A DNA stretch of 64,000 nucleotides from Pseudoxanthomonas koreensis (GTDB lineage: Bacteria; Pseudomonadota; Gammaproteobacteria; Xanthomonadales; Xanthomonadaceae), in assembly GCF_010093225.1 (NCBI RefSeq), contig NZ_PDWM01000010.1, positions 1-64,000 on the forward strand, in the 5' to 3' direction. The translations under genes and the position numbers were made by a program. Below are positions 3,504-14,306 of the stretch, piece by piece. Within the stretch, counting starts at the first letter, position 1, and every line of letters starts with the position of its first letter. Below the pieces are notes generated by a model, which searched no databases, was not told the DNA's origin, and saw nothing but the letters and a program-made list of their open reading frames with translations.

Positions 3504-4415
3504 CTATAGAAGAGCCTGGACCTCACTCGTAGTCGGTGCGTGGGCGCCGGCGTGGGTGCAGGCGGCGGCCGCGGCGGCGGCGGCGAAGCGGACATGTTCC
3601 ACCAGCGACGCCGCCGGGCGCTGCAGCAGGCTGGCGAGATAGCCGCCGACGAACGCGTCGCCGGCGCCGACGGTGTCGGCCACCGCCACTTCGAATGCGG
3701 GCTGCTCGATCCGTTCGTCGCCGCGGTACGCGGTCATGCCATCGCCGCCGCGCGTGTACAGCAGGGTCGCGGCCGGGGCCAGCGCGCGCACGCGTGCGAG
3801 GGCGTCCTCGGTGGCCAGCGCCGGATAGACGTGGCACAGGTCCTCGTCGGACAGCTTCAGCACCGTCGCCAGTGCGGCCATGCGCTCGAACAGCGGCGGG
3901 TAGGTGGCGTCCATCAGGTTGCGGCAGTTCGGGTCGAAGCTGACCGGGACGCCGGCGGCGTGCAGGGCTTCAGCGATCGCGACCAGGCGCGCGCCCAGCG
4001 GCTGCCGCACCAGGCTGATGCCGCCGAAGTGGGCCAGTTCGCAGGCGCGTTCCCAGCCTTCGGGCAGGCGCGAGGGATCGAAGGCCAGGTCGGCGCTGTC
4101 GTTGCCGAGGAAGAAGTACCGCGGTGGGTCCAGCTGGTGGACCACCGCGACCAGCGGCGCTTTCGCCACTACCTGCCAGAAGCGCGGGTCCAGGCCGGCG
4201 GCGCGTGAGAGGTCGATGATCTCGCGGCCGAACAGGTCGTCGCTGACCGCACCGCCCCATCCGGTAGGCACGCCGAGCGTCGCCGCCACCCGCGCCACGT
4301 TCCAGCAGGCGCCGCCGGCGATGCTGCGCCAACTGTCCTCGCCGCTGCGGACCAGGTCGGTCAGCGCTTCGCCGAACACGACCAGGCGTGGCAGTGCGTC
4401 CGCTGCGCCGGTCAC
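3504..4415 (-). CDS. PfkB-family sugar kinase, probable fructokinase
   Basis: This cytoplasmic kinase of 303 aa belongs to the ribokinase/PfkB fold. The N-terminal glycine-rich GGACWNVA segment binds the sugar, and the C-terminal DTVGAGDAF motif at 247-255 supplies the anion hole and the catalytic base Asp253. It starts with GTG at 4415, 16 nt after the stop of the sugar symporter, so the two form an import-and-phosphorylate pair. Fructose is the most likely substrate given the partner and similar pairs in xanthomonads, but another ketose or 2-keto-sugar acid cannot be excluded. An alanine run near the C-terminus (eight Ala) is a codon-bias feature, not damage. Confidence 0.82.
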   Translation of the reverse strand: MTGAADALPRLVVFGEALTDLVRSGEDSWRSIAGGACWNVARVAATLGVPTGWGGAVSDDLFGREIIDLSRAAGLDPRFWQVVAKAPLVAVVHQLDPPRYFFLGNDSADLAFDPSRLPEGWERACELAHFGGISLVRQPLGARLVAIAEALHAAGVPVSFDPNCRNLMDATYPPLFERMAALATVLKLSDEDLCHVYPALATEDALARVRALAPAATLLYTRGGDGMTAYRGDERIEQPAFEVAVADTVGAGDAFVGGYLASLLQRPAASLVEHVRFAAAAAAAACTHAGAHAPTTSEVQALL

Positions 4416-4431
4416 GACCGTCGCGTCCGGC

Positions 4432-5775
4432 TCAGGCTTCCCCGGCGGCGGGCGCGGCGGCCACCGGCGGCGCCAACACGCGCGACCGCACCAGCAACCC
4501 GTAGCAGGCGATCCACGCGTAGCACACCGCCGGCACCAGCAGCGCCAGCGCCAGGCCGATGCGGTCGGCGGCCAGGCCGGTCAGCAGCGGCACGATCGCG
4601 CCTCCGACGATGGCAAGGCAGAGGATGCCCGAGCCGCCCGGGGTGTCTTCGCCCAGTCCGTCGATGGACAGGGTGAAGATGGTCGGGAACATCACCGAGT
4701 TGAACAGGCCGATCGACAGGATCGCCACCGCCGCCGGCACGCCTTCCAGGGTGGTCGCCGCCAGCAGGGCCAGGCCACCGGCGCACAGCGCGCACACCGC
4801 CAGCACCACGCCCGGCGGCACGAAGCGCAGCACCCACGCGCCGATGAAGCGGCCGACCATGGCCAGGCCCCAGTACACCGCGATCAGGTTGCCGGCCGCA
4901 TGTTCGGAGCCGACCGCACCGGCCATGATCAGGTAGTTCACCAGCGCGCTGCCGATCGCCACTTCGGCGCCCACGTACAGGAAGATCGACAGCGCGCCCA
5001 GGCTCAGCCGGGGGATGCGCAGCAGGCGCAGGTAGTCGCCGTGGCCGACCGCGCGCACCGCCGGCACCGGCGCGCGGCGCAGCCACCAGCACAGCGCGGC
5101 CAGCACCAGCAGCACGCCGGCGATGATCATGTACGGCAAGCGCACGTGGCTGGCCTGCTCGACCCGGAACGCGGCCAGCGCCACTTCATCCATGCCCGGA
5201 GTCGGCTCGGCCACGCCCGCAGCGAGGATCAGCGCCGAGCCGAACAGCGGGCCGATCATGGTGCCGAACGAGTTGAACGCCTGCGCCAGGGTCAGCCGGC
5301 TGTGCGCGCGTGCCGGATCGCCCAGCCCCGCGGCCAGCGGGTTGGCCGCCACCTGGACGATGGTGATGCCGCCGGCCAGCACGAACAGCGCGGCCAGGAA
5401 CGCCGGGTAGAAGCCCATCGACGCGGCCGGCGAAAACATCAGGCAGCCGCCGGCCATGATCACCAGGCCAATCACTATGCCGCGCATGTAGCCGATCCGG
5501 CTGACCAGCAGCCCGGCCGGGATCGAGACGATGAAGTACGCCAGGAAGAAGCAGAACTGGGTCAGCATCGCCTCGGCGTAGTTCAGTGAGAACGTGGCCT
5601 TGAGCTTGGGGATGAGCACGTCGACCAGCACCGTGCAGAAGCCCCAGGCGAAGAACAGGGTGATGACCAGCGGCAACAGGCGCGAGCCCGCGGGGCCGGT
5701 GGTGGTCGCGCCGGTCGCCGACGCGCCGGCAGCGATGGTGCCGAAGGCGGATTCCTGGGGTCCCGAAACTTGCAT
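4432..5775 (-). CDS. FHS-family sugar:H+ symporter (fucose/glucose/fructose permease type)
   Basis: This 447-aa inner-membrane transporter has about twelve hydrophobic segments and belongs to the major facilitator superfamily. ITLFFAWGFCTVLVDVLIPK, PAGLLVSRIGYMRGIVIGL and QVAANPLAAGLG are typical of FucP/GluP-like sugar permeases. The ATG at 5775 is chosen because GAGGAG lies 7 nt upstream; an in-frame ATG at 5832 has no such site. It is transcribed with the PfkB kinase 16 nt downstream, so the imported sugar is probably phosphorylated at once. The exact sugar is not certain. Composite repeat 5941-6067 lies upstream, leaving about 165 bp for a promoter. Confidence 0.85.
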   Translation of the reverse strand: MQVSGPQESAFGTIAAGASATGATTTGPAGSRLLPLVITLFFAWGFCTVLVDVLIPKLKATFSLNYAEAMLTQFCFFLAYFIVSIPAGLLVSRIGYMRGIVIGLVIMAGGCLMFSPAASMGFYPAFLAALFVLAGGITIVQVAANPLAAGLGDPARAHSRLTLAQAFNSFGTMIGPLFGSALILAAGVAEPTPGMDEVALAAFRVEQASHVRLPYMIIAGVLLVLAALCWWLRRAPVPAVRAVGHGDYLRLLRIPRLSLGALSIFLYVGAEVAIGSALVNYLIMAGAVGSEHAAGNLIAVYWGLAMVGRFIGAWVLRFVPPGVVLAVCALCAGGLALLAATTLEGVPAAVAILSIGLFNSVMFPTIFTLSIDGLGEDTPGGSGILCLAIVGGAIVPLLTGLAADRIGLALALLVPAVCYAWIACYGLLVRSRVLAPPVAAAPAAGEA

Positions 5776-8684: not shown

Positions 8685-9571
<887 letters not shown>

Positions 9572-9744: not shown

Positions 9745-10560
9745 TCAGCGCAGGGTCGCGGCGAGATAGTCGTGATCGCCCGGCACGACATGGACACGGG
9801 TGGTCAACACCGGATCGTCGAAGGCGTGCACCGCGTCCAGGGTCACGGGCAGGGTGGTGCCGGGCTGGTAGTACCATCGGCTGTGCACCATCGCGATCAT
9901 ATGCCTGTTGGCCGACGACAGGTTGGGCATGCCGCGATGCCACAGGCGCGGGTCGCGCAACAGCACGTCGCCTTGCCTGCTGCGGATCCGGACAGGCGCC
10001 ACGACGTCGGCCCGCGCGCATTGCGCCTGTGCGTCGATGCGCGTGGACCCGGGGATGCGGTGCGTGCCGGGCCACAGTTCGATGGCACCGTTGCCTTCAT
10101 CCACGTCGACCAGCGGCACGTTGACGATGACCGACACGAACGGATGGACCACGTCGTTGCCGACATTCGGTGCATCGCGGTGCAGGACCTGGAAGCCGCT
10201 TCCTGGCATGTTGGTGTTGCACGTATAGAAGTGCTGGTGGACGCCGGCGCCGAGCATCGCGTGCGTGACCTGCACTACCTGCGGGTTGGCCACGATCGAG
10301 CGGTGGATGTGCCGTGCCTGCGGCGGCATCGCCTGGGGCAAATGGCCATAGGCGTTCGCTTCCGCCGCCCAGTCCACGCGCTCAGCCAATACCGCCGTGT
10401 CCTGCTCGAGCTGGAGCCGCAGCGCATCCAGCGCCGCCGGATCCACGACCCCGGGCAGCACCACATAGCCCAACTGCGCCAGCTGCTGCATGGCCTGGGC
10501 AATCCACCCCGGCTCCAGCGGCGGCGGACCCTCATATCCAAGGCGTGGCGCAATGCGCAT
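9745..10560 (-). CDS. Phytanoyl-CoA dioxygenase (PhyH)-like Fe(II)/2-oxoglutarate oxygenase
   Basis: The 271-aa protein has the PhyH facial triad: His127-x-Asp129 (LHRDAPN) and distal His208 (LWHRGMPN), with Arg219 a candidate 2-oxoglutarate anchor. Such enzymes hydroxylate or otherwise oxidise small molecules or peptide side chains with O2 and 2-oxoglutarate; the substrate is unknown. It is the last gene of a four-gene minus-strand operon and starts 7 nt after the radical SAM gene's stop. ATG at 10560 gives MRIAPRLGY. The genes upstream are an AmrS-like radical SAM enzyme, a SagB-like oxidoreductase and a small peptide, so a role in maturing one common product is inferred. Confidence 0.82.
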   Translation of the reverse strand: MRIAPRLGYEGPPPLEPGWIAQAMQQLAQLGYVVLPGVVDPAALDALRLQLEQDTAVLAERVDWAAEANAYGHLPQAMPPQARHIHRSIVANPQVVQVTHAMLGAGVHQHFYTCNTNMPGSGFQVLHRDAPNVGNDVVHPFVSVIVNVPLVDVDEGNGAIELWPGTHRIPGSTRIDAQAQCARADVVAPVRIRSRQGDVLLRDPRLWHRGMPNLSSANRHMIAMVHSRWYYQPGTTLPVTLDAVHAFDDPVLTTRVHVVPGDHDYLAATLR

Positions 10561-10567
10561 GGCCGCC

Positions 10568-11722
10568 TCAGACGAAGCGCTGCGGCTGGCGCTCGAACCA
10601 CAGTCCCGCCGGCCGCACCACCGCACCCTGCGGCGACCATCGTCCGGGCACCCGCGTGGCGCAGGCCGCGCATTGCCCTGCCGCGTCCAGCGCGTAGCCA
10701 GTGACCTGGTAGCCCATGCGCTCGACCACCGCCGTCCCGCACCCCGGGCAACGGGTGTTCTCGAAGTCACCGACCCGGCCCGGCTGCACGCCCGCATAGG
10801 TATATCGCAACCCCTCAGCGCGACCGATCGACGCCGCGCGTACGACGTCGGCCGCGCCGGCGTCCGAGCCGCCACGCATGCGGTAATCGCGGTGGAAGTT
10901 CCACAGGGTCCATGGAATGTCGGGCGACACCGACGCGATCGCGCGTGCGGCACCGCGCAACTCGTCCTCGCTGTCGTTCCAACCCGGGACGACCAGCGTG
11001 ACCAATTCCAGCCAGAAACCGCGCTCGGCGACCATGCGCAGGGTGTCCAGCACCGGCTGCAGGTGCGCTCCGAGCGAACGGTAGCGTTGCGGCGACAGCG
11101 TCTTCAGGTCGATCTTGACCAGGTCGACGTGCGGACGCAGGAAATCCAGGACCTCCGGCGTGGCGTAGCCGCTGGAGACGATGCCGGTGGTCATGCCGGC
11201 GGCCTTGGCACGGGCGAATAGCTCCACCGCCCACTCGGCCGTGATCAGGGGCTCGTTGAGCGAACTCAGCAGCACGCGGATACCGCGCCCGTGCGCCGTG
11301 GCGACGATTTCCTCGGCCGACACCGCGGTCGGCCGTTCCGGCGCTTCGACGTCGCGCAGCACCTGCGACAGGTGCCAATTCTGGCAATAGCTGCAGCGCA
11401 GGTTGCAGCCCAGCATGCCCAGGGTCAGTACGTCCTCGCCGGCATGCGCATGCATGAAGGGCGCCTGCTCGATCGGATTGATCTGCAGGCTGCCGGCGTA
11501 GCCCCACGGTACGTGCAGCAGGCCGTCGCGGTTGAAGCGGACCTTGCAGGCGCCGCGTCGCCCCGGGGGTATCACGCAGCGATGGGCGCAGGCGATGCAT
11601 TGCACCCGCCCATCGTCGCGCATGCGCGCCAGCGTGCTGTCCGGGCGTGTCGCCGCGTCGAGCTGGGTCGCGACCGCGGTGTCGTCCGCCTCGAGCCGCG
11701 TCGGAACCGGAACCACGCTCAT
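10568..11722 (-). CDS. AmrS-like radical SAM enzyme (AmmeMemoRadiSam type)
   Basis: The 384-aa protein has the radical SAM motif CNLRCSYC (Cys106, Cys110, Cys113), which holds the 4Fe-4S cluster that cleaves S-adenosylmethionine. It also has the N-terminal cysteine set of AmrS (Cys42, Cys45, Cys49, Cys59) and a C-terminal CxxC pair of pairs (Cys325/328 and Cys351/354), both usual for this family. AmrS is normally discussed with AMMECR1- and Memo-like partners; neither is in this window. The biochemical role of the family is not established. Its ATG overlaps the stop of the SagB-like gene (ATGA, 11719-11722), so the genes are translationally coupled. Confidence 0.85.
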   Translation of the reverse strand: MSVVPVPTRLEADDTAVATQLDAATRPDSTLARMRDDGRVQCIACAHRCVIPPGRRGACKVRFNRDGLLHVPWGYAGSLQINPIEQAPFMHAHAGEDVLTLGMLGCNLRCSYCQNWHLSQVLRDVEAPERPTAVSAEEIVATAHGRGIRVLLSSLNEPLITAEWAVELFARAKAAGMTTGIVSSGYATPEVLDFLRPHVDLVKIDLKTLSPQRYRSLGAHLQPVLDTLRMVAERGFWLELVTLVVPGWNDSEDELRGAARAIASVSPDIPWTLWNFHRDYRMRGGSDAGAADVVRAASIGRAEGLRYTYAGVQPGRVGDFENTRCPGCGTAVVERMGYQVTGYALDAAGQCAACATRVPGRWSPQGAVVRPAGLWFERQPQRFV

Positions 11723-12888
11723 GGCGCGCCATGTCCAAGCAGAACCCCGAGGACGAAATGTTCCTGCGTCCCGTCCGTCTCGATGGCCTGGTCGACCAGT
11801 GCGTCAAAAACGCCGGTGAACGGGCCGGCCGACAGTCCCTGCGCCTGCGCCACCAGCAGCAGGTTCTGGACGATGCAACCGGCTTCGGCCATCAGGATCC
11901 GGTACGACACGTCAGCATACTTTGGCGTGACCCTCGACAAGCGGATGGTCAGTGCAATGAATGCCGCCGCGCCAGCGGCGATCGGGCGGGTATCGGGCAG
12001 GCAGAGATCGGCCGGATCGATCGCACGGCCATGCACGCGTTGCAATGCGTGCCGGGCCGGGTCGTACCGGTAGGCGCCCGTCTCGAGGCCATCGACCCGA
12101 TGCGCGATGACGCACACGTCCACGCCATACAACGCACCCGGCGACGGATAGGCACGCAGGCCCAGCCGCCTCTCGCCCCACGCCAGCTCGCCGGTGATGC
12201 CACAGGCGCGACCCAGCCATTGCCCCAGTTGCTCCAGCGACACGGGCCGTCCGGCATAGCGGGTCGGCGAGCGCCGATGGCGCAGGGCGGACGACAACGA
12301 GTCGTCCGGCAACGCGTCCGGCGCAGCCAGCGGCAGCCACGCGCCATCGGCGATCCGGCCGGGTGGATCGAAGGTCAGCGCCGCGAGCCGATCGGGGGTC
12401 AGCAGGGTCTGCGCGCCGGCACCGCGCATCGACCAGGCGTGCGCCTGCCGCGGACGCGCCCCTTCCGCCGGCGTCAGTGCCTCCCAGCCGATCAGGTCCT
12501 GGGTGACCACGCGCGCCAGTTCGCCCCAGCGCAGGCCCATGGCCTCCGGATCAATGCCCTGCGCCCAAGCATCCAGCCACGTGTCCAGGCATCGGGCGTC
12601 ACCCTCGATTTCCACCGTACGCCGCGTCCGCGATACGACGACCCGGCCATGGTCGCGGCCCACCGCATCGGGCAGGACGTCGAACGCCAGGGTCAGGCGA
12701 TCGTCGTGCAGGCGCGCGATGACACCGGGCGTGAGCACCCACTGGCCTGTGGGCGCAGGCGGCGCGGATCGCGCCGGCGCCGGACAATCGAAACGCGAAT
12801 CGGCCACAACCATGCCCGATGGCAGGATCATGTCGACGGAAACCTGATCGGCGGCACGGCACACCGGACTGGCCGCCGCGAAGGTCAT
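11719..12888 (-). CDS. SagB-like FMN-dependent nitroreductase-family oxidoreductase
   Basis: The C-terminal half (about 195-389) matches the SagB-type dehydrogenase family: RRSPTRY at 205-211, YPSPGALYGVD at 247-257, GLETGAYRYDP, and KYADVSYRIL followed by EAGCIVQNLLLVAQAQGLS. SagB enzymes oxidise azolines to azoles in peptide antibiotics, using FMN. The N-terminal 190 residues are not recognised. No YcaO cyclodehydratase or SagC is in the window, so azole formation cannot be assumed. The ATG at 12888 overlaps the peptide gene's TGA by one base (TGATG). Coupling to a 90-aa peptide on one side and a radical SAM enzyme on the other suggests peptide or small-molecule maturation. Confidence 0.8.
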   Translation of the reverse strand: MTFAAASPVCRAADQVSVDMILPSGMVVADSRFDCPAPARSAPPAPTGQWVLTPGVIARLHDDRLTLAFDVLPDAVGRDHGRVVVSRTRRTVEIEGDARCLDTWLDAWAQGIDPEAMGLRWGELARVVTQDLIGWEALTPAEGARPRQAHAWSMRGAGAQTLLTPDRLAALTFDPPGRIADGAWLPLAAPDALPDDSLSSALRHRRSPTRYAGRPVSLEQLGQWLGRACGITGELAWGERRLGLRAYPSPGALYGVDVCVIAHRVDGLETGAYRYDPARHALQRVHGRAIDPADLCLPDTRPIAAGAAAFIALTIRLSRVTPKYADVSYRILMAEAGCIVQNLLLVAQAQGLSAGPFTGVFDALVDQAIETDGTQEHFVLGVLLGHGAP

Positions 12889-13160
12889 CAGCGCAACGGC
12901 CTCTTTTCAGTCAGCATCGGAGCCGCTTGGCCGGCGACGTAGGTGCCCAGTTCCGCGACGATGTTCGGAGCCAGCTGCGGCGTGATCAATGCCAGCAGCC
13001 CTTCGCCGGACGCCAGCCAGTCACGTTCGGCCTGGGCTCGCGCCGCGCGCTGCAGCGAAGAACCGATGATCAGGGCGATGACCTTGCGCTCGTCCGGTTC
13101 CAGGCCCGTGTAGAACGCTTCCAGCTTGCGAATGGCCGAGTGGCTGGCGTCGTGTTGCAT
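12888..13160 (-). CDS. Small 90-aa protein heading the SagB/rSAM/PhyH operon; possible precursor peptide
   Basis: I do not recognise this family. The 90-aa protein is free of Cys. It has an N-terminal amphipathic stretch (LEAFYTGLEPDERKVIALII), a middle rich in Ala and Arg, and a tail with VAELGTYVAGQAAP then TEKRPLR. A strong site AAGGAG lies 7 nt before the ATG at 13160, so the gene should be translated more strongly than the genes behind it. It is the first gene of the operon and its stop codon is fused to the next start. Size, position and partner enzymes fit a ribosomally made precursor peptide, but a small regulatory or scaffold protein is equally possible from sequence alone. Confidence 0.7.
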   Translation of the reverse strand: MQHDASHSAIRKLEAFYTGLEPDERKVIALIIGSSLQRAARAQAERDWLASGEGLLALITPQLAPNIVAELGTYVAGQAAPMLTEKRPLR

Positions 13161-13349: not shown

Positions 13350-13682
13350 ATGTCCCGCACGATCCTCTGCAGCCTCGCCCTAGCCACCGGCCTGCTCGCC
13401 GGTTGCGCCGGGCCGCAGATCGCCGGGGTCCAGCCGATCGACGGGCTGATCTCCGGCCAGTGCCACACCGGCATGGCCCGCGGTGCGGTGGGCCTGGCCG
13501 CGTCCGATGCCACGGTCCAGCGCGCGCGGATCGACAGCGACAGTAACGAGGTGCAGGTCGTGCGCGGGGCCGACAAGCGCACGGGCGGGGCCAGCACGCC
13601 AGTGGAGGCCACTTCCGGCGGACCGCGCCTGACCATCGAAACCGGCCGCAACAACGCCATCACGGGGATGCATTGCGGCTGA
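13350..13682 (+). CDS. Small lipoprotein, divergent I78-inhibitor-like
   Basis: The 110-aa protein has a signal peptide ending in the lipobox LLAGC (Cys19), so it should be an outer-membrane or periplasmic lipoprotein. GGAG lies 7 nt before the ATG at 13350. The C-terminal part ends RNNAITGMHCG, the ending style of I78-family peptidase inhibitors such as the neighbour at 13920, but the AGA...RPG core of that family is not clear. It points away from the peptide operon at 13160, about 190 bp distant. Function is not known; the inhibitor link is tentative. Confidence 0.72.
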   Translation: MSRTILCSLALATGLLAGCAGPQIAGVQPIDGLISGQCHTGMARGAVGLAASDATVQRARIDSDSNEVQVVRGADKRTGGASTPVEATSGGPRLTIETGRNNAITGMHCG

Positions 13683-13919
13683 GGGCGCGGTGCGTCCGTC
13701 AGCTGGCCGGCGTCGACCGCGCCAGACCGGGCGTCGCGCATCCGCCGGGTTCCGGGTACGCGACAGGCCGCCGCGGCGCGCCGATGGGCACGTTCGATGC
13801 GTCGCACCCGGACGAGGCGGACCCCCATCCGCTCAAGGCAGGGCTGTGCGCAGCGCGGTTAACGACTCCCGAATGCGGGCTGCGGCAATCTCGGCGCCTC
13901 TGTCCTCCGGAAACCGCCG

Positions 13920-14306
13920 ATGCAAACGCACCTGCTCCGCACCCTGCTGCCGCTCGCCCTGGCCACCGCACTCTGCGCCTGCTCCGCCGGCACCGCGCCG
14001 GAAGACGATGGCGCCGAACAGGAGCAGGCGCTCGCCGACGCGCAGCAGGCCGCGGAGTCGGCGGCCACTCCACCCGAAGGCACGGGCGCCGCCGCGCCGC
14101 CGCTGGAGTGCGACGACACCCAGGTGCAAGGGCTGGTCGGCCAGGTGCTGGAAGAGTCCACTGCCGAGCAGGCCCGTGTCGACGCCGGCGCGAAGAGCGT
14201 GCGCGTGCTCGAGCCGGGGCAGATGGTGACCATGGAGTTCGACGGCGAGCGGTTGAACATCGAGGTCGATGGGGAGCGGAAGATCGTGGCGCTGCGCTGC
14301 GGCTGA
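13920..14306 (+). CDS. I78-family peptidase inhibitor, exported lipoprotein
   Basis: The 128-aa protein has a signal peptide with lipobox-like ALCAC, then a 40-residue Ala/Glu/Gln-rich linker, then an I78 domain. The domain core AGAKSVRVLEPGQMVTMEF followed by RLNIEVD and a terminal LRCG is the pattern of potato-inhibitor-like I78 proteins, in which two cysteines (in LECDD and RCG) probably form a disulfide. The family inhibits serine peptidases. It is the second of two small exported proteins in the same direction, 237 bp after the first; the gap holds nothing recognisable. Confidence 0.82.
   Translation: MQTHLLRTLLPLALATALCACSAGTAPEDDGAEQEQALADAQQAAESAATPPEGTGAAAPPLECDDTQVQGLVGQVLEESTAEQARVDAGAKSVRVLEPGQMVTMEFDGERLNIEVDGERKIVALRCG

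Follow-up and report, generated by a model that had tools for sequence, protein, structure and literature searches.

The window analysed here, a 64,000-nucleotide stretch of Pseudoxanthomonas koreensis (NCBI RefSeq assembly GCF_010093225.1, contig NZ_PDWM01000010.1, positions 1 to 64,000), carries at positions 9745–13160 a cassette of four intact minus-strand genes, recognized from the list of open reading frames (ORFs) and by inspection of the sequence. The first gene (12888–13160, minus strand) encodes a cysteine-free protein of 90 aa and 9.76 kDa without a family match, and was called from its ORF, its codon usage and an AAGGAG motif located 7 nt upstream of its ATG. It is followed on the same strand by genes for a SagB-type flavin mononucleotide (FMN) dehydrogenase of 389 aa (11719–12888), assigned with PF00881 and TIGR03605; an AmrS-type radical S-adenosylmethionine (SAM) enzyme of 384 aa (10568–11722), assigned from TIGR04337, its cysteine positions and a tree; and a KanJ-like, PhyH-family Fe(II)/2-oxoglutarate (2OG) oxygenase of 271 aa (9745–10560), assigned with PF05721 and an alignment to KanJ. 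The cassette is real and unusual; it is known from one genome, and its function is one that we infer.

The genes are tightly coupled. The TGA of the peptide gene and the ATG of the SagB gene have one base in common (TGATG, 12890–12886), the SagB and radical SAM genes overlap in an ATGA (11722–11719), and a gap of 7 nt (10567–10561) separates the radical SAM stop from the PhyH ATG. The original prediction, made from the sequence alone, had described four coupled minus-strand genes headed by a Cys-free 90-aa peptide with an AAGGAG site, and the ORFs and junction sequences confirm this description in full. When codon usage was scored in all six frames after training on the kdsA, manC and gltB frames within the window, the stated frame ranked first for each of the four genes; the peptide frame scored +0.288 per codon compared with −0.193 for its best rival, and the SagB frame had the narrowest margin of the four (0.097 vs −0.12). 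Between positions 9400 and 13900, no match to a sigma-70-type promoter was found, and the single terminator-like match equals the number expected by chance.

The first-gene protein and the three enzymes

The 90-aa protein contains 0 Cys, and its 5 Ser and 4 Thr are scattered along the chain, so that it lacks the Cys/Ser/Thr-rich core of the precursors of thiazole/oxazole-modified microcins (TOMMs). It matched nothing in Pfam and NCBIfam (E ≤ 1 for both), PHROGs (E ≤ 10), PADLOC (E ≤ 0.01), the PDB (E ≤ 10) or plasmids (E ≤ 1), its helix moments were not significant, and it was present in only one of 41 genomes, the source genome. As no homologue was found, a family alignment that might reveal a variable core could not be built. 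Fast-evolving precursor peptides often lack homologues, and a 90-aa orphan encoded by a first gene that overlaps SagB is more usual for precursors. Judged from its sequence and gene position, the 90-aa protein is a candidate precursor peptide or accessory protein.

The profile scores of all three enzymes lie above the family cut-offs, which bears out the classes originally predicted for them, namely a SagB-like oxidoreductase, an AmrS-like radical SAM enzyme and a PhyH-like dioxygenase. The SagB-type protein matches PF00881 at residues 202–386 and scores 101.1 bits against TIGR03605 (cut-off 78.4), and its nitroreductase domain (approximately residues 202–386) is preceded by an N-terminal region without a family match. 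Its nearest solved relatives in the PDB are CyaGox and related SagB-type enzymes, and its K323-Y324 pair is in register with that of CyaGox. The K-Y pair has a catalytic role in azoline dehydrogenases. At E ≤ 1e-30, the protein was found in one of 297 genomes of the family, that of the source. At E ≤ 1e-5, matches occurred in 51 of 369 genomes of the class, the source included, three of them from the same genus or family (E 7.4e-12 to 3.3e-8), and the best match outside the source genome within the class had an E value of 7.1e-21 with 40% identity over about 180 aa. Relatives at E ≤ 1e-20 were present in 14 of 297 genomes of one phylum, the Acidobacteria (best, 35% over about 210 aa), and the single SagB sequence gave no match in the genome-contig collection. 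The best plasmid match, from Cupriavidus, was 41% identical over residues 203–389; it forms the C-terminus of an 806-aa SagB-family protein with N-terminal tetratricopeptide (TPR) repeats, encoded on Cupriavidus necator N-1 pBB2 (L017:6153-8573).

The PhyH-family protein scores 68.2 bits against PF05721 (cut-off 22). Its closest solved relative is by far the kanamycin B dioxygenase KanJ, matched with an E value of 3.1e-38 over residues 14–267, compared with 6.6e-06 for the next structure other than KanJ, and its H127-x-D129, distal H208 and R219 are in register with KanJ, giving the full HxD...H triad and the Arg. In this family, the HxD...H motif forms the facial triad and the Arg binds 2OG. 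At E ≤ 1e-20, the protein was found in one of 369 genomes of the class, again that of the source. A Caballeronia relative is 35% identical over residues 25–233, and its gene adjoins those for a sugar ATP-binding cassette (ABC) transporter and an aldose epimerase.

These affinities bring in the main rival to the peptide-modifying function proposed below, namely that the cassette tailors a sugar-, amine- or amino-acid-derived metabolite, the 90-aa protein being an accessory or regulatory subunit. The closeness to an aminoglycoside oxygenase and the sugar-related neighbours of the Caballeronia gene both argue for such a small-molecule pathway, SagB-type folds also serve oxidation by non-ribosomal peptide synthetases (BmdC), and no peptide-processing or export gene was matched among the four proteins. 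However, the unit lacks an enzyme for assembling or loading a small-molecule scaffold, the SagB model that was matched is one of peptide dehydrogenases, and the position of the 90-aa orphan is more usual for a precursor. A small-molecule pathway is a possible explanation, though we regard it as doubtful.

The radical SAM enzyme matches PF04055 and scores 251.1 bits against TIGR04337 (cut-off 220). Its CX3CX2C motif consists of C106/C110/C113, and eight further cysteines lie at C42/C45/C49/C59 and C325/C328/C351/C354. All eleven are common to this enzyme and a 52%-identical relative (G427), which among the sampled genomes of the class gave the best match after the window enzyme itself; the gene of that relative adjoins one for a PilS-like histidine kinase, and none of the other three cassette genes was found in the 19 kb examined there. 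In the family, matches at E ≤ 1e-20 occurred in two of 212 genomes, the second being 38% identical. AmrS-type relatives as such are common; of the 369 genomes sampled from the class, 183 contain one at E ≤ 1e-30. An alignment-based scan of genome contigs placed the enzyme nearest to proteins of Acidobacteria and other phyla; the alignment contained the window protein, and the best 80 of at least 519 relatives were used, a selection that could have passed over a less common locus with linkage.

In an unrooted tree built by a quick method, a branch with a Shimodaira–Hasegawa-like approximate likelihood ratio test (SH-aLRT) value of 100 splits AmrS-type enzymes into two sides, and the window enzyme falls on the second, although its exact place is unsure because its own branch is long (1.37). 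The second branch was sampled through 81 loci, comprising the 80 scan loci (L052–L131) and one class genome (L019), with flanks of up to 8 kb and less at contig ends, and the canonical AmrS enzymes through the 28 next-best class matches (L020–L047), all from one class and flanked by about 1.5 kb to the left and right. One Memo protein (itself confirmed as PF01875 with 185 bits) served as the tblastn query, and a Memo gene was present within the sampled flanks in 24 of the 28 canonical loci compared with five of the 81 second-branch loci. At 41 diagnostic columns, the window enzyme agrees with the second branch at 30, with the canonical enzymes at two and with neither at nine. On these grounds, the window enzyme is not a canonical AmrS and groups with a widespread, mostly Memo-less branch. 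That branch spans Acidobacteriota, Chloroflexota, Ignavibacteriota, Verrucomicrobiota and others. We know of no function for it and, more generally, of no established reaction for AmrS-type enzymes.

Neither Memo (PF01875) nor AMMECR1 (PF01871) was matched at E ≤ 0.001 in the source genome, which is 99.95% complete, and each was matched in five of 14 control genomes by the same search. The lack of AMMECR1 and Memo partners, noted originally for the neighbourhood, therefore holds genome-wide at this threshold. It had also been taken as a departure from the company that AmrS normally keeps, and this part did not stand; since the enzyme groups with a branch in which Memo is mostly missing, its absence is usual rather than odd.

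Within its branch, the enzyme has diverged strongly. Of 124 columns conserved in at least 93% of the 81 second-branch enzymes, it deviates at 22, whereas those enzymes themselves deviate at a median of one and a maximum of nine, and at 11 of the 22 columns the residue from which it departs also occurs in 27 or all 28 of the canonical enzymes. Such alteration of otherwise conserved positions, along with the missing Memo and AMMECR1, would fit a degenerate remnant of an AmmeMemoRadiSam system, in which a decaying AmrS stands beside incidental neighbours. The remnant explanation is nevertheless very improbable; the cysteines are intact, including CX3CX2C, the frame is unbroken and scores as coding, and the enzyme groups with the mostly Memo-less branch instead of the canonical one. 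Deviations at so many positions with all cysteines kept would point to a changed substrate rather than decay, and the pattern suggests that a changed substrate fits better than a housekeeping AmrS.

Distribution and genomic site

Linkage of the four genes was sought by tblastn at E ≤ 0.01 in 171 loci, many of which, outside the source genome, extend no more than about 1.5 kb to either side of the match. Two or more of the genes together were found in five loci, all from the source genome; the co-occurrence looked for on the basis of the original prediction was thus not borne out by any second linked locus. Seven larger stretches around SagB matches contained the SagB relatives and none of the other three genes. 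Among the best 80 radical SAM loci, matches to the remaining genes were near chance, with SagB in L054 (33% over 45 aa, E 0.007), the peptide at E 0.57 in L057 and at E 0.87 in L059, and PhyH in L109 (E 0.97). SagB was matched at E ≤ 1e-8 in three of 20 genomes picked from these loci, and the whole genome of L054 gave no SagB match at that threshold.

The lack of conserved linkage, together with the different affinities of the enzymes (Acidobacteria and other phyla for radical SAM, a Cupriavidus plasmid for SagB, KanJ and Caballeronia for PhyH), would be expected if independent redox genes had recently been assembled behind a common promoter without a common substrate, for example for repair or stress functions. 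Two overlaps and a 7-nt gap, the joint absence from congener stretches and the rarity of the three enzymes in the lineage argue instead for one unit gained together, and we consider a recent assembly of independent genes to be clearly unlikely.

The cassette sits between kdsA and lip1. In 15 congener stretches taken for the site, none of the four genes was matched (E ≤ 1e-3); lip1 is conserved, being present in 13 of the 15, and kdsA was found in only three. A sugar major facilitator superfamily (MFS) gene lies to the left of lip1 in eight of the 13 congener stretches that carry lip1, and matches to this MFS gene and its sugar kinase occur in the window at 3507–5685, left of manC. The displacement of this kinase/MFS block indicates that the neighbourhood has been rearranged, with variation centred on the left flank of lip1. 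A replacement of the sugar cluster by the cassette was rejected, given that the kinase and MFS matches are still in the window. As to the neighbours in the region 13353–14306, lip1 was called a lipoprotein by eye and has no Pfam match, and the gene after it (13920–14306) encodes a peptidase inhibitor I78 family protein.

From these comparisons, the cassette looks lineage-specific, and one gain of the whole unit, presumably horizontal, would be the simplest history. A phage or plasmid origin was rejected, as no viral-contig locus related to PhyH, the peptide or SagB and no similar plasmid DNA were found. Contamination or misassembly is judged unlikely because the GC content of the cassette is similar to that of its flanks, codon usage is that of coding frames, and the cassette is placed between kdsA and the congener-conserved lip1.

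Proposed function and relation to known systems

Considering these results, we propose, tentatively, that the genes were gained horizontally and form a biosynthetic cassette, specific to this lineage, whose type is like that of ribosomally synthesized and post-translationally modified peptides (RiPPs), a reading that we find plausible while holding it to be somewhat short of probable. In this scenario, the 90-aa protein would be made first and would serve as the substrate or as a scaffold carrying it. The diverged AmrS-type enzyme may carry out a radical modification, the SagB-type enzyme may remove two hydrogens via FMN, and the KanJ-like 2OG enzyme may hydroxylate or oxidize a carbon, so that the three enzymes would act in turn, in one order or another, on the peptide, as originally surmised, and lead to a single product. 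Consistent with such a scenario, the unit begins with the peptide gene, whose stop codon runs into the start of SagB, and SagB passes the cut-off of a peptide-dehydrogenase model and keeps the K-Y pair. The divergence of the radical SAM enzyme with its cysteines intact and the want of homologues of the peptide fit as well. A printed precedent is provided by the FtsH-ternary peptide-processing modules, in which a radical SAM protein related to the Memo-AMMECR1 type lies beside a small, fast-diverging protein (PMC7159879).

Several observations weigh against the RiPP-like reading. No azoline-forming YcaO, transporter or protease was matched among the four proteins in Pfam or NCBIfam, and no RRE (RiPP recognition element) or PqqD was matched in the SagB N-terminus with the same databases. 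The peptide has neither Cys nor a matched family motif, the near relatives of PhyH act on small molecules or adjoin genes for them, the nearest relatives of the three enzymes differ, and linkage in a second genome was not found among the 171 loci. A more specific proposal, that a Memo- and AMMECR1-free AmrS branch with rewritten residues has been recruited together with a YcaO-free SagB and a KanJ-like 2OG oxygenase to make a new class of peptide, is rather unlikely.

The product of the cassette may be a small modified molecule not described before. As a self-contained set of four genes, the cassette could allow an AmrS-type reaction to be followed directly. Should the peptide prove to be the substrate, a YcaO-free SagB route and a new radical SAM branch would be added to those available for peptide natural products. 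The combination had been put forward as one not known as a described system, and this holds within the open-licence literature of PubMed Central (PMC), in which no description of SagB with a radical SAM enzyme and a phytanoyl-CoA dioxygenase was found. Anti-phage defence was also considered and rejected, PADLOC having given only viperin-model matches to the radical SAM core (best, 27.4 bits, E 5.1e-07).

The cassette resembles TOMM and azole RiPP systems (SagB, McbC, CyaGox; TIGR03605) in its SagB domain above the cut-off, its K-Y pair and its small first gene. Unlike them, it has no YcaO in the unit, a peptide without Cys and a SagB N-terminal region without an assigned family; YcaO was matched neither among the four proteins nor among the products of kdsA, manC, lip1, lip2 and gltB, the rest of the genome not having been searched. 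With the putative peptide modification system of TIGR04510/TIGR04511, it has in common a SagB-related dehydrogenase coupled to a presumed peptide. However, no cyclase adjoins the cassette, and its SagB reaches only 72.4 bits against TIGR04511, below the cut-off of 240, so that this identity was rejected by score. That system occurs in the source genome too, where contig C22 carries a separate pair of a TIGR04510 cyclase and a TIGR04511 SagB-related dehydrogenase (L051:4439-8705).

The radical SAM score above the TIGR04337 cut-off is shared with AmmeMemoRadiSam systems. The canonical system was nevertheless rejected because its Memo and AMMECR1 partners were not matched in the genome and the enzyme groups with a different AmrS branch, with 11 positions conserved in both branches altered. 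KanJ is like the cassette oxygenase, of which it is the closest solved relative, in its HxD...H...R register; no aminoglycoside pathway genes were named among the scanned neighbours of the cassette. The nearest printed analogue found is the FtsH-ternary modules (PMC7159879). These modules differ in that the cassette has SagB and PhyH, and their zincin-like metallopeptidase was not matched among the four proteins and the scanned neighbours, yet in both a small, diverging protein adjoins a radical SAM enzyme related to the Memo-AMMECR1 type.

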